DNA from: Candidatus Mediterraneibacter pullicola
Lineage (GTDB): Bacteria; Bacillota; Clostridia; Lachnospirales; Lachnospiraceae
DNA: 50,441 bases
NCBI GenBank assembly: GCA_019117065.1
Contig: DXAK01000035.1
Location: 1-50,441 of the forward strand
Direction of reading: 5' to 3'
Below the pieces are notes generated by a model. It ran no database searches and was not told the DNA's origin. It saw nothing but the letters and a program-made list of their open reading frames with translations. A program made the position numbers and the translations under genes. Positions 28,120 through 49,903 of this stretch are shown one piece after another; the stretch's first letter is position 1, and each line of letters opens with the position of its first letter.

Positions 28120-28177
28120 GTTATTACCTTCCTCTGTGAAGCTGCTTACGGAATAATTAAATTCCAATAAGTATGTT

Positions 28178-28308
28178 CTCTTCTCTCATCCAGACTATAC
28201 TGTCGGTACCGGAATTCTTTCCCTATAGGAAAGTCACCGGTTCAGCCGCTTATAAAAGCGGGTCGCGGACTATACCGCCGGTTGGGACTTGCACCCGACC
28301 CCGAAGAT
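28178..28308 (-). promoter_or_regulatory. FMN riboswitch (RFN element)
   Basis: The minus strand carries the conserved RFN blocks in order: TCGGGGTCGGGTGCAAG, CCCAACCGGCGGT, AGTCCGCGACCCGC, the variable stem with TATAAGCGG, GAACCGGTGAC, GAATTCCGGTACCGACAGT and ATAGTCTGGATGAGAG. FMN binding should favour the terminator at 28087-28119 and shut off ribU. Confidence 0.95.
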
Positions 28309-28328
28309 TTATTCCTTTTACAGATACT

Positions 28329-35136: not shown

Positions 35137-36519
35137 ATGACCTATAAAGAAGCAAGGGTATATTTGGACGACATGTCCAAATACGGAAGTGTACTTGGCT
35201 TAGATACGATTCGAGGTCTGCTGCGTGAACTCGGCAATCCACAGGAGAGCCTTCGGTTCATACACATCGCAGGAACAAACGGAAAAGGCTCTGTGCTTGC
35301 ATACACTTCTTCTATCTTAAGTGAAGCAGGATACAGAACCGGGCGGTATGTATCACCGACAGTCATCTCCTATCTGGAACGGATACAGGTTGACGGTATG
35401 TGGATATCGGAAGAAATGTTCGCGCAGATGACATCGCAGGTAAGAGATGCTATCGCCCGCTTAGAGGAAGCCAAAGAACCGCTTCCCACAGTCTTTGAGG
35501 CTGAGACGGCGATAGCCTTTTTATATTTTAAGGAAACGCATTGCGACTTTGTCGTACTTGAAGCCGGACTTGGGGGCGCGCTGGATGCGACAAATATTAT
35601 AGAAAATACTGTCTGCGCGGTCTTTTCCCCGATCAGCCGGGATCATCTCGGCGTGATCGGCAATACGCTCGAAGAGATCGGTGAGAATAAAGCAGGGATT
35701 ATCAAACCCGGATGCGCCGTTATTTCATCAGGGCAATCCCCTTCTATAACAGAAATACTAAAAACACATGCTTCCCAAAACGGATGCCCGTTTATTCAGG
35801 CAGACCCCGGACAGATCAAAATACATCGGGAAGATTACCGGGGAATGGAACTCTCTTATAAAGGATACCGCCATCTAAAAACCTCTCTGCCAGGGAGATA
35901 CCAGACCGATAACCTGTGCACCGCCCTCGAGGTTGTCCACTGGCTTCAGGGAAATGGTTATCCCGTCAGCGAGGAATCGGTGAGAACAGGCACGGCGCGT
36001 GCTTTCTGGCCGGGAAGATTTACCTGTATCGGAGAATCTCCCGTCTTCATCCTTGACGGAGCACACAATGAAGCCGCGGCTCTTAAGCTCCGGGAGACTG
36101 TTGAGACCTATTTCCCCGGAAGAAAACTCATCTTTATTATGGGGGTATTCCGGGATAAAGAATATGATAAAATCGCAAAGATCATGTGTCCGCTTGCTTC
36201 TTCCGTCTACACGGTGGAACTTCCGGATAAAAAGCGGGGCCTCCCAGCCAGGGAACTCGCGGAAACGGTGAAAAAGTACTGTCCGGGCACGGTTGCTTCC
36301 TCTGACGGAAATAACAGCATATTGCAGGCAGTAACACAAGCGCTGTCCGAAGCAGAGGATGAGGATATAATTCTCGCCTTTGGCTCCCTGTCCTATCTCA
36401 AGCAGACAGAAGAAGCATACACCCGTCTGCGGCAGGCAAAAGAAACAGCAACGCACCTGCGGCAAAGAGAAAGAGCAGGCGTACTTCATGCCGGCAGTGC
36501 AAGTACATCAGAGAAATAA
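35137..36519 (+). CDS. folC: bifunctional dihydrofolate/folylpolyglutamate synthase
   Basis: Mur-ligase-family enzyme that adds glutamate to dihydropteroate and/or folates using ATP. The 460-aa protein has the P-loop [20 protein letters not shown] near residue 42, the FPGS signature with [13 protein letters not shown], the [19 protein letters not shown] segment and the C-terminal domain with [15 protein letters not shown]. It has a basic/polar tail of about 35 residues past the usual end ([17 protein letters not shown]). It is the first gene of folC-folE-HD-folP-folBK, all tightly spaced, which supports a role in de novo folate synthesis. Confidence 0.95.
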
Positions 36520-36533
36520 GGGAGGAAACTTTT

Positions 36534-37091
36534 ATGATAGATCAGGAAAAAATAGAGCAGGCAGTACGCCTCATGCTCGAAGGCATCGGTGAAGATGTCT
36601 CCCGGGAGGGCCTTAAGGACACGCCCGCACGCATTGCCCGTATGTGCGGGGAACTGTACAGCGGAATGGGCGAAGATGTGAAAGAACACCTGTCCCGCAC
36701 ATTTTCCGTGGACACGAGCGAGATGGTAATCGAAAAGGATATCACTTTCTATTCCATGTGTGAGCACCACATTCTTCCTTTCTACGGGAAAGCACATATT
36801 GCCTATATCCCAGACGGAAAGGTCGTAGGCTTAAGCAAACTTGCGCGCACGGTGGAAGTCTTTTCCAGACGGCTTCAGGTTCAGGAACAACTCACCGGAC
36901 AGATCGCAGACGCTCTGATGGAATATATGAAACCAAAGGGAGCACTCGTGATGCTGGAAGCAGCGCACATGTGCATGACCATGCGAGGCATCAAGAAACC
37001 GGGCAGCCAAACCGTAACCATCGCAAAACGAGGTTTGTTTGAAACCGATCCCTCGCTGGAAGAAAGATTTTTCCGGATGATGGCGCGCTGA
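36534..37091 (+). CDS. folE: GTP cyclohydrolase I
   Basis: Converts GTP to 7,8-dihydroneopterin triphosphate, the first step of pterin synthesis. The 185-aa protein has all signature elements: [20 protein letters not shown] with zinc ligands Cys and His near residue 77, the [19 protein letters not shown] stretch, QIADAL and [17 protein letters not shown] with the second zinc Cys. GGGAGGA precedes the ATG. It lies 14 bases after folC. Confidence 0.98.
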
Positions 37092-37136
37092 CCTCAGCTA
37101 AGGACACAGACACACAGAAGAACAGGAGCATACAGC

Positions 37137-37628
37137 ATGAAACGGGTAAACGCAATCATCACACACCCTGTATATCAGGCATATTATAAGCGACTGGAAG
37201 AGCTGGAACAGAACCGCCCTTTCTGCCGTCATCAGATGACACACCTTATGGACGTGGCGCGGATCGCCTATATCCGCTCCCTCGAAAGGGGGCTTCCTCT
37301 GGACAAGGAAGTGATTTACGCGGCGGCAGTCCTGCACGACATCGGCAAATCTCTTCAATATGAAAAGAAAATCCCCCATGAAATCGCGAGTGTGGAGATT
37401 GCGGAAAAGATATTGTGCAGCCTTCCCCCGAAGGTCGTATTTTCCGCAGAGGAAATACGCGTGATCCTCACCGCTGTCCGGGGACACCGTATGCTGCGGG
37501 AGGATGCGGAGCCTTTAGAGCAGCTTCTCTATGAGAGCGACAAAGCGTCAAGGATGTGCTTTTCATGTCCCACAGAGGCAGATTGTAACTGGAGCAGGGA
37601 AAAGAAAAACATGGAGATAATGATATGA
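37137..37628 (+). CDS. HD-domain phosphohydrolase of the folate operon
   Basis: A 163-aa metal-dependent HD hydrolase: FCRHQMTHLMDVARIAY (first His), AAVLHDIGKSLQYE (HD pair), a downstream His (KKIPHEIASVEIA) and a late acidic residue (LLYESDKASRMC). The C-terminus has CFSCPTEADC, spacing CX2CX5C, perhaps a small metal site. It sits between folE and folP and overlaps folP (ATGA). No Nudix-type dihydroneopterin triphosphatase is in the operon, so this protein is a natural candidate for removing phosphates from dihydroneopterin phosphate. That role is an inference from position. Confidence 0.88.
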   Translation: MKRVNAIITHPVYQAYYKRLEELEQNRPFCRHQMTHLMDVARIAYIRSLERGLPLDKEVIYAAAVLHDIGKSLQYEKKIPHEIASVEIAEKILCSLPPKVVFSAEEIRVILTAVRGHRMLREDAEPLEQLLYESDKASRMCFSCPTEADCNWSREKKNMEIMI

Positions 37629-38440
37629 TTATTGGCAGCAGAAAATTTGACACAGAAAAAAACACTTTCATTATGGGCATTCTCAATGTGACCCCGGATT
37701 CCTTTTCAGACGGAGGACGGTACAATAACCTTGACGCAGCGCTTTTCCACGCCGCGCGGATGGTGGACGAGGGTGCGGACATCCTCGATATTGGTGGAGA
37801 ATCCACACGCCCGGGTCATATACAGATATCTGACGCCGAGGAGATTGGCCGCGTCGTCCCTGTCATCGAGCGGCTGAAACACGAGTTTGACATCCCCTTA
37901 TCTATCGACACTTATAAAAGTGCTGTAGCAGAAGCAGCGCTTAATGCCGGGGCTGATCTGGTCAATGATATCTGGGGGCTGAAATACGATAAAAAAATGG
38001 CGGATGTCATCGCAAAAAGCGGCTCAGCCTGCTGCCTGATGCACAACCGGGACACTGCGGAATATAACGACTTCACGGCAGATTTCTTAAAGGATATGGG
38101 CCAGTCTTTGGAAATTGCCGATAAAGCGGGAATCCCCCGCGATAAGATCATCCTTGATCCCGGTGTGGGATTTGGCAAGACATACGAGATGAATCTCGAG
38201 ATCATCAGCCATCTGGAAATCCTGCACGGGCTGAAGCTTCCCATTCTGCTCGGAACCTCCCGCAAGTCCGTTATCGGACTTACTCTGGATCTTCCGGCTG
38301 ATCAGAGAGAGGAAGGCACACTGGTGACCACGGTTTATGCCGTCCAGAAGGGCTGCGCGTTTGTCCGGGTTCACGATGTGGCGAAAAACAAACGGGCAAT
38401 TCTAATGACACAGGCGCTGATGCGAGAGCACAGCATATAG
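37625..38440 (+). CDS. folP: dihydropteroate synthase
   Basis: Condenses 6-hydroxymethyl-dihydropterin diphosphate with p-aminobenzoate; target of sulfonamides. The 271-aa TIM barrel has FIMGILNVTPDSFSDGG near residue 18, the DIGGESTRPGH signature near residue 56, PLSIDTYKSAVAEAAL, LVNDIWGLKYD, KIILDPGVGFGKTYEMN and the GTSRKSVIG loop. It starts inside the HD gene stop (ATGA overlap), indicating translational coupling. Confidence 0.98.
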   Translation: MIIGSRKFDTEKNTFIMGILNVTPDSFSDGGRYNNLDAALFHAARMVDEGADILDIGGESTRPGHIQISDAEEIGRVVPVIERLKHEFDIPLSIDTYKSAVAEAALNAGADLVNDIWGLKYDKKMADVIAKSGSACCLMHNRDTAEYNDFTADFLKDMGQSLEIADKAGIPRDKIILDPGVGFGKTYEMNLEIISHLEILHGLKLPILLGTSRKSVIGLTLDLPADQREEGTLVTTVYAVQKGCAFVRVHDVAKNKRAILMTQALMREHSI

Positions 38441-38500
38441 ACAAACATAGATTCAGATACGCAGATATATGACACAGCTCAGAAAAGAAGGGAAAACGAT

Positions 38501-39331
38501 ATGACACAGACTGTATATGATCAAATTAAAATTCAGGACTTGGAAGTCTTCGCAAACCACGGTGTCTTTCCGGAAGAGAATACTCTGGGGCAGAAATTTC
38601 TCATCTCAGCCGTACTTTACACAGACACTCGAAAAGCCGGTCAGAGCGATGACCTGAAGGCGTCCATTCATTACGGGGAAGTCAGCGCCTTCATCAACCG
38701 CTACCTAAAATCCCATACATTCAAACTACTGGAACGGGCTGCAGAAGCATTAGCAGAAGAGCTTCTTCTCCACACTCCGGGACTTGAAAAAGTGTGCTTG
38801 GAGATCAAAAAGCCATGGGCTCCCATCGGCCTTCCCCTCAAAACTGTAAGCGTGAAGATCCAACGCGGATGGCACACGGCCTATATTGCCCTCGGCTCTA
38901 ATCTGGGCGACCGGGAACAGTATATCAAAGACGCTGTAAAAGCACTGGACACAGTCCGCGGCTGCTCCGTGGAAAAAGTATCTTCGCTGATTGAGACACC
39001 ACCTTACGGAGTTACTGATCAGGCTGACTTTTTAAACGGCTGCCTAAAACTACAGACTCTTCTCACCCCCGGGGAACTGCTCACCGAACTCCATCGGATC
39101 GAGCAGGCGGCAGGCAGGGAGCGGGTCATCCGCTGGGGTCCCCGGACACTGGATCTGGACATCATATTTTATGACGATCTTGTCTGGGAAAACGACGACC
39201 TGTGCATCCCCCATGTGGAAATGCACAAAAGGCTTTTCGTTTTAGAACCGCTTTGTGAAATCGCGCCGTATAAAAGACATCCCGTTTATGGAAAGACAGT
39301 GTGGGAAATGAAAGAAGAAATCTATGAATAA
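38501..39331 (+). CDS. folBK: fused dihydroneopterin aldolase / hydroxymethyl-dihydropterin pyrophosphokinase
   Basis: One 276-aa polypeptide carries two consecutive folate steps. Residues about 1-122 are FolB (IKIQDLEVFANHGVFPEENT with the catalytic Glu, the IHYGEVSAFI segment, and a C-terminal IKKPWAPIGLPLK lysine motif). Residues about 126-276 are FolK (AYIALGSNLGDREQYI, ETPPYGVTDQADFLNGC, and the signature RWGPRTLDLDIIFYDD). This fusion is common in Clostridia. It is the last gene of the operon; a long hairpin follows 6 bases later. Confidence 0.96.
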   Translation: MTQTVYDQIKIQDLEVFANHGVFPEENTLGQKFLISAVLYTDTRKAGQSDDLKASIHYGEVSAFINRYLKSHTFKLLERAAEALAEELLLHTPGLEKVCLEIKKPWAPIGLPLKTVSVKIQRGWHTAYIALGSNLGDREQYIKDAVKALDTVRGCSVEKVSSLIETPPYGVTDQADFLNGCLKLQTLLTPGELLTELHRIEQAAGRERVIRWGPRTLDLDIIFYDDLVWENDDLCIPHVEMHKRLFVLEPLCEIAPYKRHPVYGKTVWEMKEEIYE

Positions 39332-40839: not shown

Positions 40840-41691
40840 TCACAACAGGCCTAATTGTTCAAATGAATAATATAAGCCGTCTTCCTCTACCGTGCCGCAC
40901 ACCATGTCGGCACAGGCTTTGATCTCATCATCTCCATTTCCCATGACTACGCCCAACCCTGCAGTAACAATCATATCATGATCATTCATACTGTCTCCAA
41001 AAGCAACACTCTGACTAAGTGGTATTTTGTATTGCTCACACACAAATTTAAGAGCCTCGCCTTTATTCACGTCTTTCCTGATCACTTCCACATCTGTAAT
41101 CACATTGTCTCCCACAGCCGGGTGGACCGCAATCCGATATTTCCCTGACAACTTTTCCCTGACCAATTGCAGACGGTTGTCAACTGCACTTAGGAGGACG
41201 ATATTGTAAATACTCTCGCCTCTGTATTGACTTATGTCTGTAATCGCATGCCTTGCCACCATCTCCTTGAGATCTTCCATTTCCTGATTGATTCCCTTCT
41301 GCTTCTCTATCCCCAGCCGTCCGTATTTCACTAAATCCATGAATACGCTTTCTCTGCCTTCAAGCATATATACAATGCCAAGGGAATCCAAGTATCTGCC
41401 CAAGTCTAAAATCTCAGTATAGGAATAGGGCAGACTTTTCCGTATCTGCCCCTCCGTCTCAATATATGCTCCAAGCCCCAGTATCATACCATCCCACTTC
41501 ATGTCCCGTATTTTCTGTGGAACTACAGACGGCGCACGCCCGGTACAAAGAAACACTTTATTTCCGGCCCGTCTTGCCTTTCTGACAGCTTCACGTGTGA
41601 GAAAACTGGGCTCAGTGCCTGTCACGCATAAAGTACCGTCCAGATCAATGAAAATGGCATGCTGCAGTTCTTCTTCATATCCTATATTCAT
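40840..41691 (-). CDS. Cof-type HAD phosphatase of the PTS operon
   Basis: A 283-aa haloacid dehalogenase-like hydrolase, subfamily IIB (Cof). Motif I is IFIDLDGTLCVTG (residues about 13-25), motif II is LCTGRAP, motif III a lysine in KDVNKGEAL and motif IV GDSMNDHDMI. Such enzymes remove phosphate from sugar phosphates, FMN or PLP. It is the last gene of the PTS operon, 45 bases after HPr, with GAGTGAGGA before its ATG. A role in dephosphorylating a product of the pathway is likely but inferred from position. Confidence 0.92.
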   Translation of the reverse strand: MNIGYEEELQHAIFIDLDGTLCVTGTEPSFLTREAVRKARRAGNKVFLCTGRAPSVVPQKIRDMKWDGMILGLGAYIETEGQIRKSLPYSYTEILDLGRYLDSLGIVYMLEGRESVFMDLVKYGRLGIEKQKGINQEMEDLKEMVARHAITDISQYRGESIYNIVLLSAVDNRLQLVREKLSGKYRIAVHPAVGDNVITDVEVIRKDVNKGEALKFVCEQYKIPLSQSVAFGDSMNDHDMIVTAGLGVVMGNGDDEIKACADMVCGTVEEDGLYYSFEQLGLL

Positions 41692-41736
41692 TCCTCACTC
41701 CTGCCTGTCCATTCTTCCATGGATCATTTTGTGTCA

Positions 41737-41997
41737 TCATTCCTTCAGGCCTTCGATAAACTCCGTTAACTCTTTCATTACCGTCTGTTCGTCTTCACCT
41801 TCAGCAACGATTTTGATTTTTTTCCCCTTCGTCATATCGCCTCGTAAAATGCTAAATATGCTGCGCGGATTCACAAGCTTATCCCCGCAAGTAATCGTGA
41901 TCGTACTATTACAGTTTTTTGCAATCTTGCATAGCTGTGACGCAGGACGTGCATGCAGGCCTGTAGGATTTTTTATTTCAAGTTCACAGGCAATCAT
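41737..41997 (-). CDS. HPr-like PTS phosphocarrier protein
   Basis: An 86-aa HPr-family protein. The active-site histidine is His15 in TGLHARPAS. The usual regulatory position Ser46 is present in VNPRSIFSIL, but the sequence around it (normally close to KSIMGVMSLG) is clearly different, so HPr kinase recognition is uncertain. AGGAGG lies 8 bases before the ATG, 12 bases after the regulator gene. Since the cell needs a general HPr encoded elsewhere, this one is probably dedicated to the adjacent PTS. Confidence 0.93.
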   Translation of the reverse strand: MIACELEIKNPTGLHARPASQLCKIAKNCNSTITITCGDKLVNPRSIFSILRGDMTKGKKIKIVAEGEDEQTVMKELTEFIEGLKE

Positions 41998-42009
41998 TTC
42001 TTTTTCCTC

Positions 42010-44178
42010 CTAATTCAACTTATTATAATAATGGCGCAGGATACGGCTGATTTCTGCCACATTTCCCGCCTTCTGAAGTTCCATCGGAAATTCCGGGAAC
42101 TCATCCAAAAGGATAAACACTTCGTCCAGTGCCTTCGCCTGTGTCACTGTATCTGAAAGTGCAAGCACCATAACTACATAGATCAGTACCGGTTTTCCAT
42201 CTATCATCAATTCCAGCGGTTCTTTCAGTGTCGCTAGGGAACAAGCTAGTTTATATTTGGCATCAGGCTCTGCATGGGGCATACATATTCCATTTGAAAT
42301 AACAGCATACTGCTGATAACGGTTCTTGAGTTCTATAATCTCCCGCACATATTTCTCTGTGATACACCCGTCTTTAATAAGAGGCTTCGCCGCCTTTTGA
42401 ACCGCACTTTCCCAGTCAGCGGCATCAATATGCGCCTGAATATATTTCTTAGGCAGGATGTCATAAAACGAAGGAAATTCTGTCAGCCTCATCAGGCTGA
42501 CTCCGTTCGGCTCAATATGCCGTTTCAGTTCTTCAATCAGTTCTTCCTTATTTTTCACATCACAGTGCCTGCCGATAACATACATCAGCTCGTTAATCCT
42601 AAACTCCTGCGCCGTCTTGTCTGGATCCGCGCGTTTTGTCCGAAGAAAAGAATCGATTCTTCTGATATCCATTCTCCTCAAAATAGGATTAACCTTTATC
42701 ACTGGCTTCGGCAGAACCAGTGGGATATCGATCGTTGTAAACACAAGATCAATCTGAGAAAAATCATAACTCTGTATATCAAAAATAGATAGCTGATCCA
42801 CGATAGCGATCATGGGAAACTGTCTTTTCAGTGAAGAAGTCAGAAAAGCAACCGTACCCACCCCATAGCCACAGATGAGCGCTGCGCGGACATTTTCAGA
42901 TTCATCGAGCCGTCCACTGTTTTTTTGGATGCTCAGGACAATGTACATTGTAACAAACCCTATCTCTTCTTCGCTGAGCAAGACACCATACCTATCGCCA
43001 ATATCCTCTGCAATTTCCTTACATATCGCATAAATATCAGGAAATTTTATCTGAATCTCCTCCAGCATAGCGTTATGTGCCGGGATGCCAAGCTGTGCGC
43101 GTATGATCGCCGCTTGAAGATGCGTTTTCAGGGCATCCAACAGCTCACTGTCGCCTGATAGATCCAACCCTAGTTTGGACCGAATCTCCTCTTGAAGATA
43201 AGCGCTTGCTTTAATTGCAGTCTCGCTCCCGGAATCCAGATCTGTTTCTTTCCCTTTTTTTGCCGACATATACATATAAGCCACAAGATAAGATGCCTCA
43301 TTTTCTGCCTCTTCCTCTGTCAGATATTGGGAGAGATCTTTTTGTATCTTTTGCTTCAACTCGTTTTTCTGTGTATTATTGGTCAGAGAATCATACTGTT
43401 TTGGCAGCCTTGTTACCACATGCCCGTCTTTGATTCTTGTAATCATAACAACCAGATAATAGATCATCCAGATATATTTCTCATCACTGATCGTAATGTG
43501 CCATTTTTTCAGATAGACATCCACTTCGGCAATAAGCTGATTTAAGTTTACAGTTCCGAAAATGCGGTTAATATACGTAAATGTACTTGGCCTTGAAACT
43601 GTTTCACTTTCCTCATCTTTATACAAGATAAAATATTTCATCAGCATCGGCTGGCTGGAATTCTCCTGTATAAAATCGATGATCAGCCTGCGGCATACTA
43701 TTTCATCCGCATCGATTCTGACTCCTCTGCGCTGTTTTCTCAAGAGCTGTACATTATGTCCGTCGAACCATTCGCTGACTTTCTCCATGTCCCGTACAAA
43801 AGTTGCCCGGCTTACTCCGAATCGCCTCGGTCCTTCATCAAAGGAATAATCACTCTCTCCTTCCAGAACATCGATAATCATCATGCCTACCCGTTCACCG
43901 GAATTTAAAAATCTGTTCTCTGTCACATATTCATCTTGTTCCTGAAGAATCTCCCATGCCTTTTCCCGATTTTTTGTATCAAAGCAAACGCCTTTCTGTG
44001 GGACTCTTTTAAGTCTGACATCCCGTTCTTTTAACCAGTCCTCCAGAAGTGACAGATCATACCGTACTGTCCTCTCACTAACCCCAAGCTGTTCAGCGAG
44101 ATTACGTACTGGAACCGGATCTGGATTTCTACAGAGCATTTGCAGCAGTAAAAGGCAACGTTTTGTGATTGCTATCAT
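42010..44178 (-). CDS. PRD-containing transcriptional regulator with EIIB and EIIA domains
   Basis: A 722-aa PTS-controlled regulator of the BglG/MtlR/ManR group. In order: an HTH_11-type helix-turn-helix (about 1-60, VRNLAEQLGVSERTVRYDLS), a second Mga-like HTH (about 95-165, FGVSRATFVRDMEKVSEW), PRD1 (about 190-300), PRD2 (about 310-420), an EIIB-Gat-like domain (about 430-515, LICGYGVGTVAFL with a cysteine at the phosphorylation position) and an EIIA-Mtl/Fru-type domain (about 575-722) with phosphorylatable His635 in CMPHAEPD. It should activate the operon when the transporter and HPr signal substrate. It lies inside the operon, between TrpA-like 1 and HPr. Confidence 0.94.
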   Translation of the reverse strand: MIAITKRCLLLLQMLCRNPDPVPVRNLAEQLGVSERTVRYDLSLLEDWLKERDVRLKRVPQKGVCFDTKNREKAWEILQEQDEYVTENRFLNSGERVGMMIIDVLEGESDYSFDEGPRRFGVSRATFVRDMEKVSEWFDGHNVQLLRKQRRGVRIDADEIVCRRLIIDFIQENSSQPMLMKYFILYKDEESETVSRPSTFTYINRIFGTVNLNQLIAEVDVYLKKWHITISDEKYIWMIYYLVVMITRIKDGHVVTRLPKQYDSLTNNTQKNELKQKIQKDLSQYLTEEEAENEASYLVAYMYMSAKKGKETDLDSGSETAIKASAYLQEEIRSKLGLDLSGDSELLDALKTHLQAAIIRAQLGIPAHNAMLEEIQIKFPDIYAICKEIAEDIGDRYGVLLSEEEIGFVTMYIVLSIQKNSGRLDESENVRAALICGYGVGTVAFLTSSLKRQFPMIAIVDQLSIFDIQSYDFSQIDLVFTTIDIPLVLPKPVIKVNPILRRMDIRRIDSFLRTKRADPDKTAQEFRINELMYVIGRHCDVKNKEELIEELKRHIEPNGVSLMRLTEFPSFYDILPKKYIQAHIDAADWESAVQKAAKPLIKDGCITEKYVREIIELKNRYQQYAVISNGICMPHAEPDAKYKLACSLATLKEPLELMIDGKPVLIYVVMVLALSDTVTQAKALDEVFILLDEFPEFPMELQKAGNVAEISRILRHYYNKLN

Positions 44179-44207
44179 AATCTCTCTTCTTTCTGTCTAT
44201 CTGTTTG

Positions 44208-44984
44208 TCAGTCCAAAGCCATACGAAGGCTCCTGATGAATTCTTCTCCCTTTCCATTTTGGATCGCCGTGATTACCGCACTGCCCACAATCACTCCGTC
44301 TGTTCCCATATCGCACACTTCTTTTGCCTGCTGTGCATTAGAGATACCAAACCCGCCAAGCACCGGCGTGTTGATACCCAGTTCTTTTAAGCGCCGGGCA
44401 TTGATTCCAACTTGCGGAGAAACTGTCTTTTGCATTCCTGTGGCTCCATCCACAGCCTGTTGGAAAATATATCCCTTTGCATTTTTTATCAGATCTTCCT
44501 CCGCCTCTGCACTCAAATGATATGGAGAGAACCGCAAGTTCAACAAACCATATGAAGACAGTACCCGATCCATCTCTGGGAATTTTTCTTTCGGGATATC
44601 CGGACAAAGTACTGCGTCGGCTCCGCAGTCTGCACAACGTTTTGCAAATGATTCTATTCCCATCCGATCAATGATCTTATAATAAGTCATTACTTGCAGA
44701 ATCTTATCCTCATATGTTGCGCGCAATGTTCGGATCACCTCAAATGCGTCCTCTACTGTATATTTTGAAAGCGCACGGCTCATAGAATCCTGAACTGTCT
44801 TACCATCCAGATGAGGATCTTCAAATGGAAGCCCCATTTCCAAAACCGTGGTCCCATTCTCAAAATATTTCCCCGCCCACTCAACCTGATCCTCGAGCAG
44901 CGTATCACACAGCGGATAATAACAAACAATGATTTTCTGTCCTTGTTCCTTCATTTCACTTAAAATTTTTTCCATACGGTTCAT
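44208..44984 (-). CDS. tryptophan synthase alpha-like protein 1 (catalytic pair kept)
   Basis: A 258-aa TIM barrel clearly homologous to TrpA, with family length. Glu49 in LEMGLPFEDP and Asp60 in PHLDGKTVQ fall at the same residue numbers as the catalytic pair of E. coli TrpA. Phosphate-binding segments GGFGIS and VGSAVI are present. The flexible loop corresponding to the SGVTG region reads VDGATGMQ. A real TrpA splits indole-3-glycerol phosphate by retro-aldol cleavage; with no other trp genes and a PTS around it, this copy more likely cleaves another phosphorylated compound to a triose phosphate. AGGAGG lies 8 bases before the ATG. Confidence 0.9.
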   Translation of the reverse strand: MNRMEKILSEMKEQGQKIIVCYYPLCDTLLEDQVEWAGKYFENGTTVLEMGLPFEDPHLDGKTVQDSMSRALSKYTVEDAFEVIRTLRATYEDKILQVMTYYKIIDRMGIESFAKRCADCGADAVLCPDIPKEKFPEMDRVLSSYGLLNLRFSPYHLSAEAEEDLIKNAKGYIFQQAVDGATGMQKTVSPQVGINARRLKELGINTPVLGGFGISNAQQAKEVCDMGTDGVIVGSAVITAIQNGKGEEFIRSLRMALD

Positions 44985-45068
44985 TCAAATTACCTCCTGT
45001 CCCTATGGCAGATCACTTTCTGTTCTTTAACTTAATGTCTGACAATTACTCCTAATTCCTCTGCCAGC

Positions 45069-45536
45069 TTATTCCTTATACAATGTCTCCTGAAATATCC
45101 TGCAGATCTGTTCTTCATCCGCAGATAAAATCTCATTGCATTTTTCTGGAATACTGAACATTTCAATCAGATTATTTAACACTGCCAGATGCGTTTCTGG
45201 CTGTTTTACTGCCAAAAGCACAACAAGCTCTACTGGGATCTCCTCTTCGGGATCTTCCATGCTGTGGAAGATCACTTTTTCCCGGCATTTTCCTATCGCA
45301 ATGGCTGACGTTTCCACATAAGATGAGTCACCGTGCGGTAATGCGATCGCAATATTGGGGAACTGTAGCCCCGTAGGATATTCGCGTTCTCTCTCACAGA
45401 TCTTATCAGCATAGACCTCTTGCACAAATCCTTGCGCTGTCATCAGACCCGTTAAATGTCGTAATACAGTTTGCTCCGTATTTTCCATAATATTCAGGTC
45501 GACACATTCTCTGCAGATCTTAATCTTTTCTTCCAT
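45069..45536 (-). CDS. PTS EIIA component (galactitol/fructose type)
   Basis: A 155-aa EIIA of the PTS-EIIA-2 (Mtl/Fru/Gat) fold that accepts phosphate from HPr and passes it to EIIB. The active-site histidine is His68 in IAIALPHGDSS, and the downstream region VVLLAVKQPETHLAVLNNL is typical of the domain. The ATG at 45536 has GAGGTG 6 bases before it; a GTG three codons upstream overlaps the preceding stop and is less well placed. It lies between TrpA-like 2 and TrpA-like 1, unusual for an EIIA. Confidence 0.93.
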   Translation of the reverse strand: MEEKIKICRECVDLNIMENTEQTVLRHLTGLMTAQGFVQEVYADKICEREREYPTGLQFPNIAIALPHGDSSYVETSAIAIGKCREKVIFHSMEDPEEEIPVELVVLLAVKQPETHLAVLNNLIEMFSIPEKCNEILSADEEQICRIFQETLYKE

Positions 45537-45541
45537 GACAT

Positions 45542-46393
45542 TCACCTCGTTTCTGTCGCCGCTTTTTTCATCTCTATCAGAAAACGGTAGATATCTTCTT
45601 TACTTTCTCCATTCATCATGCGCGTAAAGAGTGCGCTTCCGAACATAACATGCAGTCCCAGTTCTCTGGTAAGTACTCTTACCTGTTCCGGCGTAGAGAT
45701 TCCGCAGACAGCTACGATCGGGCATCTCCTTCCCGTTTTCTCCTGAACACGTAGGATGCCCTCCTTGGCCTTTGCCAGTCTTTCATAATCCATATCATCC
45801 CGTTCCCCAGTCTTGCCCCCGGCTGTCGCCAGCAGAAAACAGAAACCGTGCGACACCGAAACAATTTTTTCCAAATGCTTATAGCCGTCTGTGCCGGGAT
45901 CAGACAATGCCGCATCTGCGCTGATGACAGTCACAAGATTGATTCCTCTTTTCTCAAGCTCATGCCCAAGCCCACGGGGATCTCTGTCATGTACAAGTGG
46001 ATAATCCGGAACATCCGCCACATGTATCCCAAGTCTGGCGAGCTCACGCACATAATTTTCCTGCCCCATACGTTGCAGCCCTCCATAAAAGCCAACCGGC
46101 ATAAACTCTGTCTCCGGATATCTCTTTATCAGTTCCTCCAGAACCTGAAAAGATTGTTTATACCAGATCTTGTTCTCAGCTGCCATTTTCTGGATTGACA
46201 AAATCCTTTTTCCATACATCCACGGAAATCTAACTGGAATCGGTATCTGAATGATATCAATCCCCGCCCGGATCAGCAGATCAGCCATCTCAAGCTGTGT
46301 TTTCGGTATCGGCAAAAGCATCGGAATCTCTACGATAACACCGCCTTTATGCTCTGCTTCATACGCGAAAAGTTTTTGTTCTACAACATTCAT
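45542..46393 (-). CDS. tryptophan synthase alpha-like protein 2 (catalytic pair lost)
   Basis: A 283-aa TrpA-like TIM barrel. The fold is recognised from AGIDIIQIPIPVRFPWMYGK at the position of the TrpA LELG...DG motif and from the phosphate-binding VCGISTPEQV and FGSALF near the C-terminus. At the positions of Glu49 and Asp60 it has Gln49 and Tyr60, so TrpA chemistry is not expected. It shares the IP-x5-PWM-x-G motif with TrpA-like 3 but not with TrpA-like 1. Its ATG follows the TrpA-like 3 stop with no gap (AGAGGA site 7 bases upstream). Confidence 0.85.
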   Translation of the reverse strand: MNVVEQKLFAYEAEHKGGVIVEIPMLLPIPKTQLEMADLLIRAGIDIIQIPIPVRFPWMYGKRILSIQKMAAENKIWYKQSFQVLEELIKRYPETEFMPVGFYGGLQRMGQENYVRELARLGIHVADVPDYPLVHDRDPRGLGHELEKRGINLVTVISADAALSDPGTDGYKHLEKIVSVSHGFCFLLATAGGKTGERDDMDYERLAKAKEGILRVQEKTGRRCPIVAVCGISTPEQVRVLTRELGLHVMFGSALFTRMMNGESKEDIYRFLIEMKKAATETR

Positions 46394-47260
46394 TTATTTT
46401 TCCTCTCCTCTGACACACATACGCCGTATTCCTTTTAAATACTCTGATACTTCTTCTAACGGGCGTCCTTCCTGAAGAAATCGGATATACGCGCTGCCGA
46501 TCATAAAAGAATCCGCTCCTGATCTTTTTACCTTGCGGATATCTTCTTCACCGGAGATTCCACAGACAATCGAGACACTGCAGTCCATATTCCCTTGCTG
46601 TTCCATCATATTTTTCACACGGGACACTGCTTCTCTTAGCTGTTCGTCTGTCAGCTTCACATCCGAGCCAGACTGTCCGCCGGGAGCATTCATGACAAAC
46701 ACAAATCCCCTGCCGTATTCCGCGATTTTACACAACATCTCATATTCTGGTGTTCCTTCCGGAGCCGTAGCTATCTCATAGGAAACGGCCAAGATCAAAT
46801 GTCTGCCATGCTCTACACAATATTTATAAAATCCAAACTTATCATCTGTAGAAAGAAGAGGATAATTCGGTATATCAAATCCGTCTACGTCCGCAGCTTC
46901 CGACAATTCCAGAAAACGTCCTTGTCCCATGGTAGCCGCCGTATCATACAATGTCATATCAATCAGAGGTACGTCCGGATAAGCTTCCCGCAGTTCCCTG
47001 ATAAATTCAAAAATTTGTTCTCTCGTAACTTTCGCATTCCGTGGAGCGCGTGCTGCAAGCTGCAGCACACGTCCTTCCATCCACGGCATCCAGTTCGGAA
47101 TATGTACCATAACGATATCTACTCCGGAAGCGATCATCATATCAGCGATCTCCCGGCTTTTTCTCATAGACTGCGGATCAATTGGAACAAGTCCGATAAA
47201 AGCAACTCTTCCCTCCTGCCGGGCTCTTTCAATAGTCTTGTTGATGCGGTTTATCTTCAT
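46394..47260 (-). CDS. tryptophan synthase alpha-like protein 3 (catalytic pair lost)
   Basis: A 288-aa TrpA-like TIM barrel. The phosphate-binding tail VCGISGEEDIRKVKRSGADS and MIGSAYIRF is kept. At the Glu49 and Asp60 equivalents it has Met51 and Glu62, in VMVHIPNWMPWMEGR. Like TrpA-like 2 it carries the PWM-x-G variant, so the two form one subgroup. The start overlaps the TrpB-like stop by one base (TGATG), with GGAGGTG just upstream: tight coupling suggests the proteins are made in fixed proportion and may form a complex, as TrpA and TrpB do. Confidence 0.85.
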   Translation of the reverse strand: MKINRINKTIERARQEGRVAFIGLVPIDPQSMRKSREIADMMIASGVDIVMVHIPNWMPWMEGRVLQLAARAPRNAKVTREQIFEFIRELREAYPDVPLIDMTLYDTAATMGQGRFLELSEAADVDGFDIPNYPLLSTDDKFGFYKYCVEHGRHLILAVSYEIATAPEGTPEYEMLCKIAEYGRGFVFVMNAPGGQSGSDVKLTDEQLREAVSRVKNMMEQQGNMDCSVSIVCGISGEEDIRKVKRSGADSFMIGSAYIRFLQEGRPLEEVSEYLKGIRRMCVRGEEK

Positions 47261-48294
47261 CAGACTGCACCTCCCCAGCGTAATGAACGCACAATCACGA
47301 GGGGCTGGCCTTTTGCAGGATTGTTTTCACAATAGGCAAGCGCCGCCATACTCTGAAGGGATAACGGACTGGATGGATCTGTCTCTACTTCTGCGTTCTG
47401 TCCTTGAGCCTGAATAGATTCCCGTGGTTCCATCCGAACACGGCGAACCCTGCCTTGGTCTTCCAGTTCCGCCAGCTCCGCCGCAATCACTCGGTCTGTA
47501 ATATTGTTACGGAGTACCTTCGTAAACGACCCGCAATAGCTATCAAGTTCTTCTTCTAGTTCTGGCTCGGTATCACATTCCACGCATACAAATTCCGTGT
47601 CCCAGTCTGCCGCTGTCGCCACTGCCAACGCCTCTGTCCCACTGATAGTGGGAATAATAATACGTTGTATACTTCCATATTTCTGTTTTACCTCCGCCAT
47701 CATATCTCTGCGGAAGTCAGCCGCAAAAGCAGCGGCTATATTAGTCTGTGGAAACGCGCCCACATTACTGCGGCATAGTATCAGGTGTTTCTCCTCTGGC
47801 GCGGATATCCACGCCTGGAATGCATACATCTCAGGTAGATTGAATACTTCATTGCACATTTCTGTATTCAGCGTCGCCCCCATCAGTTCCAACTGATCCG
47901 TCAGGGATCGGATACCACTTAGTTCTCGGGAGAGAAACAACTGTAAAGGCACTTGCAGATCTGCGCATACACGGGCACATAGCCATGCCTCGTCCGCGTA
48001 TCTAGCACCGCATACAGCCGATTTTCCCAAATATTTCCCCAGCAGCGCTGTTCCAAGGAGCGGGCCATAATTTTCATCTATATGACATACGATTCTGGCA
48101 TGCTCCACATCCTCTGTAAAGCGGCACTTTCCGCTCGTGTATTTTGCCTTTAACTTCTGGTATTCTTCCTGAAATCTGGCATCCGCAACAATCTCGCAAA
48201 ATTTTCTATAGTAACGGTCGCAGGATAACGTAAATGCATCTGAAATAAAGCAACCCCCATACTTCCCATACCAGACATTTCCATTATAATCCAC
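47260..48294 (-). CDS. tryptophan synthase beta-like protein lacking the PLP lysine
   Basis: A 344-aa protein whose order of motifs follows TrpB: WYGKYGGCFISD near residue 8 (TrpB YFGEFGGMYVP), FQEEYQKLKAKYTSGK (FQ...L..YAGRP), LLGTALLGKYLGKSAVCGA near residue 80 (LGQALLAKRMGKTEI), DQLELMGATL (MRLMGAEV), and a C-terminal MAALAYCENNPAKGQPLVIV ([22 protein letters not shown]). The PLP-binding HKTNQ is replaced by ENYGP, with Asn75 at the lysine position, and the GGGSN phosphate loop by PTISG, so it should not bind PLP as TrpB does. It starts at GTG 48294. Homology is judged by eye, not by a search. Confidence 0.75.
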   Translation of the reverse strand: MDYNGNVWYGKYGGCFISDAFTLSCDRYYRKFCEIVADARFQEEYQKLKAKYTSGKCRFTEDVEHARIVCHIDENYGPLLGTALLGKYLGKSAVCGARYADEAWLCARVCADLQVPLQLFLSRELSGIRSLTDQLELMGATLNTEMCNEVFNLPEMYAFQAWISAPEEKHLILCRSNVGAFPQTNIAAAFAADFRRDMMAEVKQKYGSIQRIIIPTISGTEALAVATAADWDTEFVCVECDTEPELEEELDSYCGSFTKVLRNNITDRVIAAELAELEDQGRVRRVRMEPRESIQAQGQNAEVETDPSSPLSLQSMAALAYCENNPAKGQPLVIVRSLRWGGAV

Positions 48295-48330
48295 TGTGTA
48301 TCTTCCACCTTTCTCTCGAAACAGGTTCGC

Positions 48331-48618
48331 TCATCCCATCAGGATTTCATAAATCTGTTCATAAACTTTATCAACGCCTACCCCTGTAAGTAGCGCAGCT
48401 GCAGACACTGTCGGAACATCTACCTCCGGCAGGCGTGTGGCTGAAGCAATCAGATCCGGTTTCAAGCTTTCTGCCTTTGACCTCACCTCAACAACCTTGC
48501 AGGTATCGATCTTACAATCAACTCCTTTTCCTTTTAGATATTTTTCAATTTTCATCGCAATGTTTCTAGAAGTCACTCCGCCTGTACCACAGGCTACAAT
48601 AATATGTTTCTGTTCCAT
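48331..48618 (-). CDS. PTS EIIB component, galactitol type
   Basis: A 95-aa GatB-like EIIB that carries phosphate to the substrate during uptake. The phosphocysteine is Cys10 in HIIVACGTGGVTSRNIA. The ATG at 48618 has AAAGGAG 9 bases before it and gives the usual family length; an ATG 11 codons upstream would lie within the end of the EIIC region and has no ribosome site. It follows EIIC by 25 bases. Confidence 0.94.
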   Translation of the reverse strand: MEQKHIIVACGTGGVTSRNIAMKIEKYLKGKGVDCKIDTCKVVEVRSKAESLKPDLIASATRLPEVDVPTVSAAALLTGVGVDKVYEQIYEILMG

Positions 48619-48643
48619 AGTTAAATGCTCCTTTCTCTTTTGT

Positions 48644-49903
48644 CTATCCAAATAGATTCAGAATCTGAGCAATGATCCAGCTCACCCACGTGGAAGCTCC
48701 GCCCACTGATGTAGAAACAGAATCAAAGGGAAGTCCGTTCGCCGCTGCGGCAGCCGTATACATATCCGCAGTTGCTGTACAAACATACAAAGCAATAATA
48801 AATACAAAAATACCTGCTATAAATCCCCTGAAAATATTCTTTTTACAGAAAGGCATACAACAACTCACAAGGAAGGGACATGCAATCGCCAGATCTGCCA
48901 GCGGCATTACACGGTTGCCCGGAAGAATGAATGCTAACAGAATCACGACCGGTACCAGCAGAATTCCTGTAGCCATAGCATCCGGCATTCCTACAAGAAT
49001 CGCGGCATCCAGACCAATGTTCAGCTGACGGTGGAGGAATTTCTCCGTAGTTTCACGCATACCATCCGCAACCGGCTGTATTCCTTCAATCAATGTACCC
49101 AGCATCTTCGGGAAGAGAATCATAAATGCTGCGATTGTTGCTGCAAGCTCAACACATTCTCCAAACGACATTCTTGCCACAACTCCAAATACAATTCCCA
49201 TCACAAAGCCGATTGTAGAAGGCTGGACAAGTCCGCCGAACTTTTCTTCGATCTTTTCCGGACTCCAGTCAATCTTGCGCAGCGGAGGAATCTTTTCAAT
49301 TACATAATTGACCAGTATACCAACCGGAGCAAACACCACTGCATTTCCGTGTGGTATCGATACACCGTCCAGCCCGTATGCTTTCTGAATTGCTGGCGCG
49401 GTAAAATCAGCAAATTTCAAAATAATGATCTCTGTAATAACAAAACCCACCACCGCAAGTGGAATATTCCCTGTCGTACCGTATATATACGCAGACGTCA
49501 GAGCCATTACAAAATAGTTAAAAATATCCACGTCAAAGGTGTTGGTCAGCTTCAATAAGATCATCACAACGTTTACAATCAATCCGATCGGAAGAAGCAG
49601 TGCATAAAAACTCAATGGGAACGTCACATAGGACTGTACCGAACCAATTCCCAGATCAACGACATCCAGCTTCATGCCTGTAGAATTGATGATTTCTGTC
49701 AAAACAGGAACTGCCGCACCTGCAAACATACCAACCATCGTATTCAATCCGATCATTCCTGCCGCCACATAGATGGACGACTTCAATGCTGCCATTGGTT
49801 TCAGCCTTGCCAATATCAATCCGATCAGAAAGATACCGATCATGATCATAACTGTTGAAGGAAGTGCTGCATACCAATTCAGTGCCTCCATAAAGTAACT
49901 CAT
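48644..49903 (-). CDS. PTS EIIC component, galactitol type
   Basis: A 419-aa membrane channel of the GatC/EIIC-Gat family with about ten to twelve hydrophobic segments. Family features include an early LARLKPMAALKSSIYVAAGM, the IPHGNAVVFAPVG region near residue 190, and the LNIGLDAAILVGMPDAMATG loop near residue 300. It takes up and, with EIIB, phosphorylates its substrate, presumably a polyol or related compound. It is the first gene of the ten-gene operon, with GGAGG 7 bases before the ATG and an inverted repeat in its leader. Confidence 0.95.
   Translation of the reverse strand: MSYFMEALNWYAALPSTVMIMIGIFLIGLILARLKPMAALKSSIYVAAGMIGLNTMVGMFAGAAVPVLTEIINSTGMKLDVVDLGIGSVQSYVTFPLSFYALLLPIGLIVNVVMILLKLTNTFDVDIFNYFVMALTSAYIYGTTGNIPLAVVGFVITEIIILKFADFTAPAIQKAYGLDGVSIPHGNAVVFAPVGILVNYVIEKIPPLRKIDWSPEKIEEKFGGLVQPSTIGFVMGIVFGVVARMSFGECVELAATIAAFMILFPKMLGTLIEGIQPVADGMRETTEKFLHRQLNIGLDAAILVGMPDAMATGILLVPVVILLAFILPGNRVMPLADLAIACPFLVSCCMPFCKKNIFRGFIAGIFVFIIALYVCTATADMYTAAAAANGLPFDSVSTSVGGASTWVSWIIAQILNLFG

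Follow-up and report, generated by a model that had tools for sequence, protein, structure and literature searches.

The 50,441-nt stretch analysed here, hereafter the window, is the whole of contig DXAK01000035.1 from Candidatus Mediterraneibacter pullicola, and all coordinates without a prefix refer to it. At 40840-49903 it carries ten genes that encode a phosphotransferase system (PTS) together with descendants of both tryptophan synthase subunits: three TrpA-like proteins (A1, A2 and A3) and one TrpB-like protein. By the open reading frame (ORF) list, all ten lie on the minus strand, with EIIC (49903) first and a HAD phosphatase (40840) last. Our best model, to which we assign a probability of about 0.4, is a rare catabolic PTS cassette in which a core of the PTS and A1 would import, phosphorylate and cleave a glycerol-tailed compound, while the TrpB-like, A3 and A2 trio would activate or extend this pathway. 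An earlier note on this DNA had proposed that a repurposed alpha/beta-type assembly acts on the imported compound, and that interpretation is partly supported. The ten-gene, co-oriented operon it described was confirmed, its order recurring in a second genome and hence beyond chance, and Pfam and NCBIfam searches bore out its PTS, regulator, HAD and TrpA-like labels.

The evidence supports the earlier view that A1, A2 and A3 are TrpA-derived, by sequence for all three and by predicted fold for A3; in profile and Protein Data Bank (PDB) sequence searches, TrpA outscored every other family. All three passed the PF00290 cut-off of 27 bits, and A1 alone passed that of TIGR00262 (102.35 bits), A3 and A2 falling below it at 93.4 and 66.6 bits. 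The next-best Pfam families reached about 20 bits or less, and the next non-TrpA NCBIfam model 23.2 (A1), 18.7 (A3) and 12.8 bits (A2). Against PDB sequences at E<=0.001, 38 of the 39 A1 matches were TrpA-type and one was a triosephosphate isomerase. TrpA-type chains also ranked top for A3 and A2, the lists ending in a few weak matches to proteins other than TrpA. The predicted structure of A3 had a mean predicted local distance difference test score (pLDDT) of 88.6, and TrpA-type chains made up the best 50 of its 1877 fold matches.

A scan of genome contigs with an EIIC pattern yielded three related loci, which we refer to as L066, L067 and L068. L066, from a Lachnospiraceae metagenome-assembled genome, has the same ten genes in the same order, with protein identities of 56-86% (81% for A3, 76% for A2 and 74% for A1), so the neighbourhood, whose uniqueness the earlier note had named as a point that would count against it, is not confined to one genome. 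Pfam confirmed the three TrpA-like proteins and the HAD protein of L066 and gave no match for its TrpB-like protein. Between these two copies the proportion of nonsynonymous differences (pN) was well below that of synonymous differences (pS) in all ten genes, including the TrpB-like gene (0.24 versus 0.82), and synonymous divergence (dS) was saturated for six of the ten. The short and very divergent TrpB-like protein, and the two alpha-like proteins that lost catalytic residues, might suggest decaying remnants of a trp operon caught by chance in a PTS operon. We consider this scarcely credible, given that L066 preserves the gene order, the reading frames and the protein sequences in spite of that saturation. 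L067, from Olsenella (Actinomycetota), has only EIIC, EIIB, EIIA, A1 and the regulator, with no HPr-like ORF at its edges among ORFs of at least 50 aa; the TrpB-like/A3/A2 trio is therefore not essential to this PTS. In the third locus, from Megamonas, the EIIC is distant (36% identical), and by eye no TrpA-like gene was seen among ORFs of at least 120 aa.

Next, we compared the active-site residues of the alpha-like proteins. Excerpts of two papers assign the acid-base roles in TrpA to Glu49 and Asp60 (PMC9512447, PMC12930369), and those of the latter state that activity is abolished by E49D and by changing D60 to Asn, Ala or Tyr. In all 31 canonical TrpAs of relatives, columns 49 and 60 were both Glu. 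A1 has Glu49 and Asp60 in all three loci (window, L066 and L067). The window and L066 agree in having Met at 49 and Glu at 60 in A3, and Gln at 49 and Tyr at 60 in A2. G213, G234 and S235 are kept in all of A1-A3. A1 departs from the canonical proteins at two pocket columns that are invariant in all 31, F22 being replaced by Tyr and Y175 by Phe, in what we take to be Salmonella TrpA numbering, mapped by motif. Since A1 keeps the catalytic and phosphate-site residues in an altered pocket, it could be capable of retro-aldol chemistry on another substrate, and the residues it keeps agree with its earlier designation as an active-type TrpA. A2 and A3, judged by their residues, should not catalyse the known TrpA reaction.

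In a tree, the A1 proteins of the three loci formed one group (98/95), A2 with A3 one clade (100/97) and the 31 canonical TrpAs a third group (95/94). Bootstrap support had yet to stabilise, and the deep joins are unsure on account of long branches. A2 and A3 could instead be new enzymes, such as a sugar-phosphate isomerase, epimerase or lyase, that use relocated acids, with the TrpB-like protein as scaffold and A1 cleaving afterwards. They share a single clade, keep the three phosphate-site residues and are at least as conserved as A1 between the window and L066, and the candidate relocated acids, Glu22 of A2 and Glu60 of A3, are present in both ten-gene genomes. However, the relocation is read off an alignment, and the tree has long deep branches. 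We find this explanation doubtful in itself but nearly as likely as the best model. A related proposal, which we put forward tentatively as a real possibility, is a new heteromeric lyase or isomerase that acts on a PTS-phosphorylated compound and is assembled from a TrpB without PLP (pyridoxal 5'-phosphate) and two TrpA copies whose acids have been relocated.

A further TrpA-like protein was seen in an Olsenella genome (G1079; L077:12634-13389, PF00290 89.9 bits), next to an Fe-dependent alcohol dehydrogenase, a BtpA-family protein and a phosphorylase-superfamily protein. By eye this locus looks like a nucleoside catabolic locus, and TrpA-type proteins may therefore have been reused in catabolism more than once.

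The TrpB-like protein is very divergent. The window copy had no Pfam match at E<=1, and its TIGR00263 score lay below the cut-off of 392.45 bits. Aligned with hhalign onto canonical TrpB (31 rows), it matched over 319 columns with a probability of 96.7% (E 4e-10), compared to 0.7% for a TrpA control (27 rows). The earlier label thus stood as regards homology to TrpB, on this profile alignment and a weak TIGR00263 match (40.7 bits), while the role of PLP partner that went with it did not. The column of the PLP lysine, K87, is Asn in both the window and L066, that of E109 is Ala (window) or Val (L066), and the GGGSN phosphate loop is cut down to SGT with a gap. Because all three of these are lost, we regard the protein as a pseudoenzyme that should not act as a TrpB-type PLP enzyme. 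Both copies keep 29 of 168 near-invariant TrpB columns, 5 of 10 within the first 40 positions and 24 of 158 elsewhere. We also considered a matched hydrophobic pair in place of what we take to be the alpha-Asp56/beta-Lys167 salt bridge and dropped it; the Lys column reads Asn by eye in the alignment from the TrpB-type loci described below.

The closest precedent is the plant TSB-like protein, as presented in excerpts of PMC12727527: a TrpB paralogue that has lost the Glu equivalent to E105 of T. maritima, binds TSA and activates it, indicating that a non-catalytic TrpB can activate TrpA and let its product escape. The operon's protein would likewise be a TrpB paralogue without catalysis, has lost the E109-equivalent Glu and lies near a TrpA-type lyase. 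Being TrpB-derived and predicted to be non-catalytic, it has the features expected in those respects of a TSB-like-type activator. In contrast, the plant protein acts with indole-3-glycerol phosphate (IGP) and indole, has lost two key residues, keeps 69% of its interface and has been tested in vitro, according to the same excerpts, whereas the operon's protein has lost the PLP lysine and most invariant columns and is known from its sequence alone.

The trio could also be a ligand sensor or regulatory complex that signals the phosphorylated substrate to the PRD regulator or to A1, without catalysis. The absence of the TrpA acids from A2 and of the PLP residues from the TrpB-like protein would fit such a role, as would the phosphate-site residues kept in A2 and A3. 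On the other hand, the PRD regulator already has EIIA- and EIIB-type sites for PTS sensing, and Olsenella manages without the trio, and we think this reading unlikely.

For the best model, the following steps are proposed. The EII complex would import a compound with a glycerol-type tail and phosphorylate its terminal CH2OH. GAT (galactitol)-type systems phosphorylate a terminal hydroxyl, and for TrpA-type cleavage a good leaving group must carry a glycerol 3-phosphate tail; thus import would generate a phosphate that A1 could cleave. Retro-aldol cleavage by A1 would give glyceraldehyde 3-phosphate, which would feed glycolysis, and a leaving group that is probably not indole itself. TrpB-like, A3 and A2 would be an added module forming a non-PLP complex that activates A1 or handles the second product, and the HAD enzyme would take the phosphate off a product or by-product. 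We counted the ten-gene synteny, the five-gene Olsenella version, Glu49 and Asp60 of A1 and the low pN relative to pS in favour of this model, together with the close packing of the module in both ten-gene genomes, the plant precedent and the canonical trp genes of the L066 host. Several observations weigh against it. Alpha L2 is strongly altered in A2 and A3, and position 56 of A1 is D, N and R across the three loci. The structure model of the TrpB-like protein is poor (pLDDT 51.9), the loss in this protein far exceeds the plant case, and its alpha-binding face may also be gone. The Olsenella A1 occurs without a TrpB-like protein and so need not be activated by one. Finally, the G+C content of the operon (43-46% per 2.5 kb) lies inside the window's range of 41-50% and is not distinctive.

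The known tryptophan genes of the hosts bear on a different substrate. The window genome (G000, 94.3% complete) shows no canonical TrpA, no TrpB above the TIGR00263 cut-off and no TrpC (PF00218) match. It does have an ORF that is TrpB2-like by inference (C23:158490-159560, 151.9 bits) and a third weak match, and the organism is possibly a tryptophan auxotroph. Imported indole-3-glycerol could then be phosphorylated, with A1 freeing indole and the TrpB2-like enzyme making tryptophan, a salvage route for which A1 keeps the IGP catalytic set. This is improbable in our view: a linked trp locus could be missing from a genome of this completeness, the pocket of A1 is changed at the two invariant columns, and canonical TrpA, TrpB and TrpC sit together on one contig in the L066 host and again in the L067 host. 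Since the L066 host possesses these genes, its copy of the cassette is no spare trp pathway, nor is the cassette a general replacement for tryptophan synthesis.

Comparison with other known systems gave only partial likenesses. Both subunits of tryptophan synthase (TrpA-TrpB) are ancestral to four of the operon's proteins, and A1 keeps the catalytic and phosphate-site residues of TrpA; unlike that enzyme, the operon combines a beta-like protein lacking the PLP site with three alpha-like copies, two of them without Glu49, in a PTS setting with no other trp gene. BX1, a stand-alone lyase, has the TrpA fold and forms no tryptophan, which is also what we propose for A1 and most of all for the Olsenella one, but it cleaves IGP to indole in plant defence and the A1 pocket is changed. 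The EIIC together with the EIIA and EIIB phosphorylation sites makes the transporter a GAT-type PTS, like those of GAT operons. Its EIIC, however, scored 319.1 bits against the TIGR00827 galactitol cut-off of 542.2 bits, which does not permit a galactitol-specific assignment, and neither a dehydrogenase nor a tagatose-bisphosphate aldolase is among the ten genes. The excerpts of PMC10101011 on tagatose in E. coli were of no help here.

To place the cassette among relatives, we used genome sets of its own family (299), genus (58), order (392) and phylum (398), which overlap and include the own genome. At E<=0.001 the TrpB-like protein matched 88 of the 299 family genomes and 3 of the 58 genus genomes; apart from its own gene, the matches listed were 18-27% identical. 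Foreign matches were rejected as orthologues and taken as canonical TrpB, the canonical GGGSN motif being present in ORFs from 32 of 33 TrpB-type loci. At E<=1e-9, two order genomes remained, its own and one with a 27% match (locus L005, GGGSN-bearing), and one phylum genome, its own. No second orthologue was found among the genomes of the four sets, and a scan of genome contigs with a TrpB-like pattern matched seven stretches, none of them a relative. Close EIIC relatives were likewise limited to the own genome among 299 of the family (E<=1e-85) and to that of L067 among 140 of the Olsenella family (E<=1e-90). Among 37 genomes from the genus of L066, A3 was found in the L066 genome alone, and its best foreign match in the own-family genomes was 30% identical (80.3 bits). 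Among plasmids, the TrpB-like protein had no match and A3 matched two records, both annotated trpA and 26-27% identical; viral contigs had no match with A3 or EIIC. The L066 genome surfaced solely through the EIIC scan, which demands an exact 8-residue match (27 stretches matched, three of them relatives) and can miss distant copies, so the cassette is very rare and this rarity is a bound rather than a measurement. Among the papers listed in searches of PubMed Central, with subscription papers and preprints outside their scope, none described a PTS operon with TrpA- or TrpB-derived proteins or a bacterial TrpB pseudoenzyme.

The flanks of the three loci differ. In the window the neighbours are a periplasmic binding protein and 23S rRNA, the L066 copy is followed by an ABC permease, and the L067 copy by a carbohydrate kinase. 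Two large serine recombinases lie at the L066 contig start (L066:4-3278), about 5 kb upstream of the cassette. The differing neighbours and these recombinases suggest transfer, and given also its distribution, the cassette is probably horizontally distributed; base composition contributes nothing to this argument. We infer an ancestral core of EIIC, EIIB, EIIA, A1 and the regulator, which in the Lachnospiraceae form gained the trio, placed between EIIB and EIIA, as well as a terminal HPr and HAD; conversely, Olsenella may have lost these genes. Judged by eye from motifs that recur among the listed ORFs of L067:1800-9200, a long CRISPR array may lie just upstream of the Olsenella cassette.

The operon is compact, with intergenic gaps of -8 to 45 bp except for the one separating EIIA from A1, which measures 84 bp in the window and 17 bp in L066. 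In the 84-bp gap a terminator scan found no terminator-like site on the minus strand; some sites were predicted inside genes. TrpB-like, A3, A2 and EIIA abut or overlap (successive gaps of -1, 0 and -4 bp; -1, -4 and 14 bp in L066), and because of this tight packing the trio is perhaps translationally coupled. Phosphorylation sites are present by motif in EIIB (P-Cys), EIIA and HPr (P-His) and the regulator (EIIA- and EIIB-type). Upstream, a stretch common to the window and L066 is a candidate promoter/operator by its sequence; an inverted repeat upstream of the window operon was not found in L066.

Table. Positions of the operon genes and of the shared upstream stretch in the window.
Feature	Coordinates	Strand	Evidence
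EIIC, galactitol (GAT) family permease	48644..49903	-	PF03611 195.6 bits; TIGR00827 319.1 bits; identity 86% L066, 68% L067
EIIB with P-cysteine motif	48331..48651	-	PF02302 36.1 bits; CGTGGV motif in 3/3 loci
TrpB-like predicted pseudoenzyme, 344 aa, GTG start	47260..48294	-	TIGR00263 40.7 bits; TrpB profile match over 319 columns; PLP lysine, E109, GGGSN not kept
TrpA-like A3	46394..47260	-	PF00290 89.0 bits; Glu49 to Met, position 60 Glu; model pLDDT 88.6; fold matches
TrpA-like A2	45542..46393	-	PF00290 65.3 bits; Glu49 to Gln, Asp60 to Tyr; Glu at position 22
EIIA with P-histidine motif	45069..45545	-	PF00359 97.6 bits; PHG motif
TrpA-like A1, candidate retro-aldolase	44208..44984	-	PF00290 176.5, TIGR00262 177.2 bits; E49, D60, Y102, T183, F212, G213, G234, S235 kept
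PRD-type regulator: helix-turn-helix, two PRDs, EIIB-like and EIIA domains	42010..44178	-	PF00874 (PRD) 82.6, PF00359 (EIIA) 72.8 bits; EIIB-like site by motif
Dedicated HPr	41737..41997	-	PF00381 85.5 bits; GLHARP motif
Cof-type HAD phosphatase	40840..41691	-	Hydrolase_3 155.6 bits (Pfam); TIGR00099 146 bits, above its cut-off
Candidate promoter/operator stretch common to window and L066	49974..50009	-	TTTTTGCAG and CGGAA-AAAT-GAATCTT blocks identical in two-sequence alignment; A+T-rich region

Elsewhere in the window, the end of the contig (50330-50441, minus strand) is occupied by the 3' end of a 23S rRNA gene, just upstream of the operon, with two terminator-like hairpins intervening. A flavin mononucleotide (FMN) riboswitch is found at 28174-28312 (minus strand; Rfam RF00050, 97.2 bits), and a folate-type cluster at 35137-39331 (plus strand) encodes a Mur-ligase-family protein, a pterin-binding enzyme and a FolB-HPPK fusion.

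Tryptophan synthase is a textbook model of subunit allostery and channelling. With three alpha-like proteins and a beta-like protein without PLP linked to a sugar-type importer, this operon offers a natural test of which alpha/beta interactions survive changed chemistry. Because A1 exceeds the NCBI TrpA equivalog cut-off, genes of its type are likely misnamed as tryptophan-synthesis genes. The operon also points to an unrecognised carbon source, and TrpA-type retro-aldol chemistry may have found a new use in it. If the heteromeric complex proposed above is real, it would represent a PTS pathway built from tryptophan-synthase descendants, with a bacterial TrpB pseudoenzyme serving catabolism.

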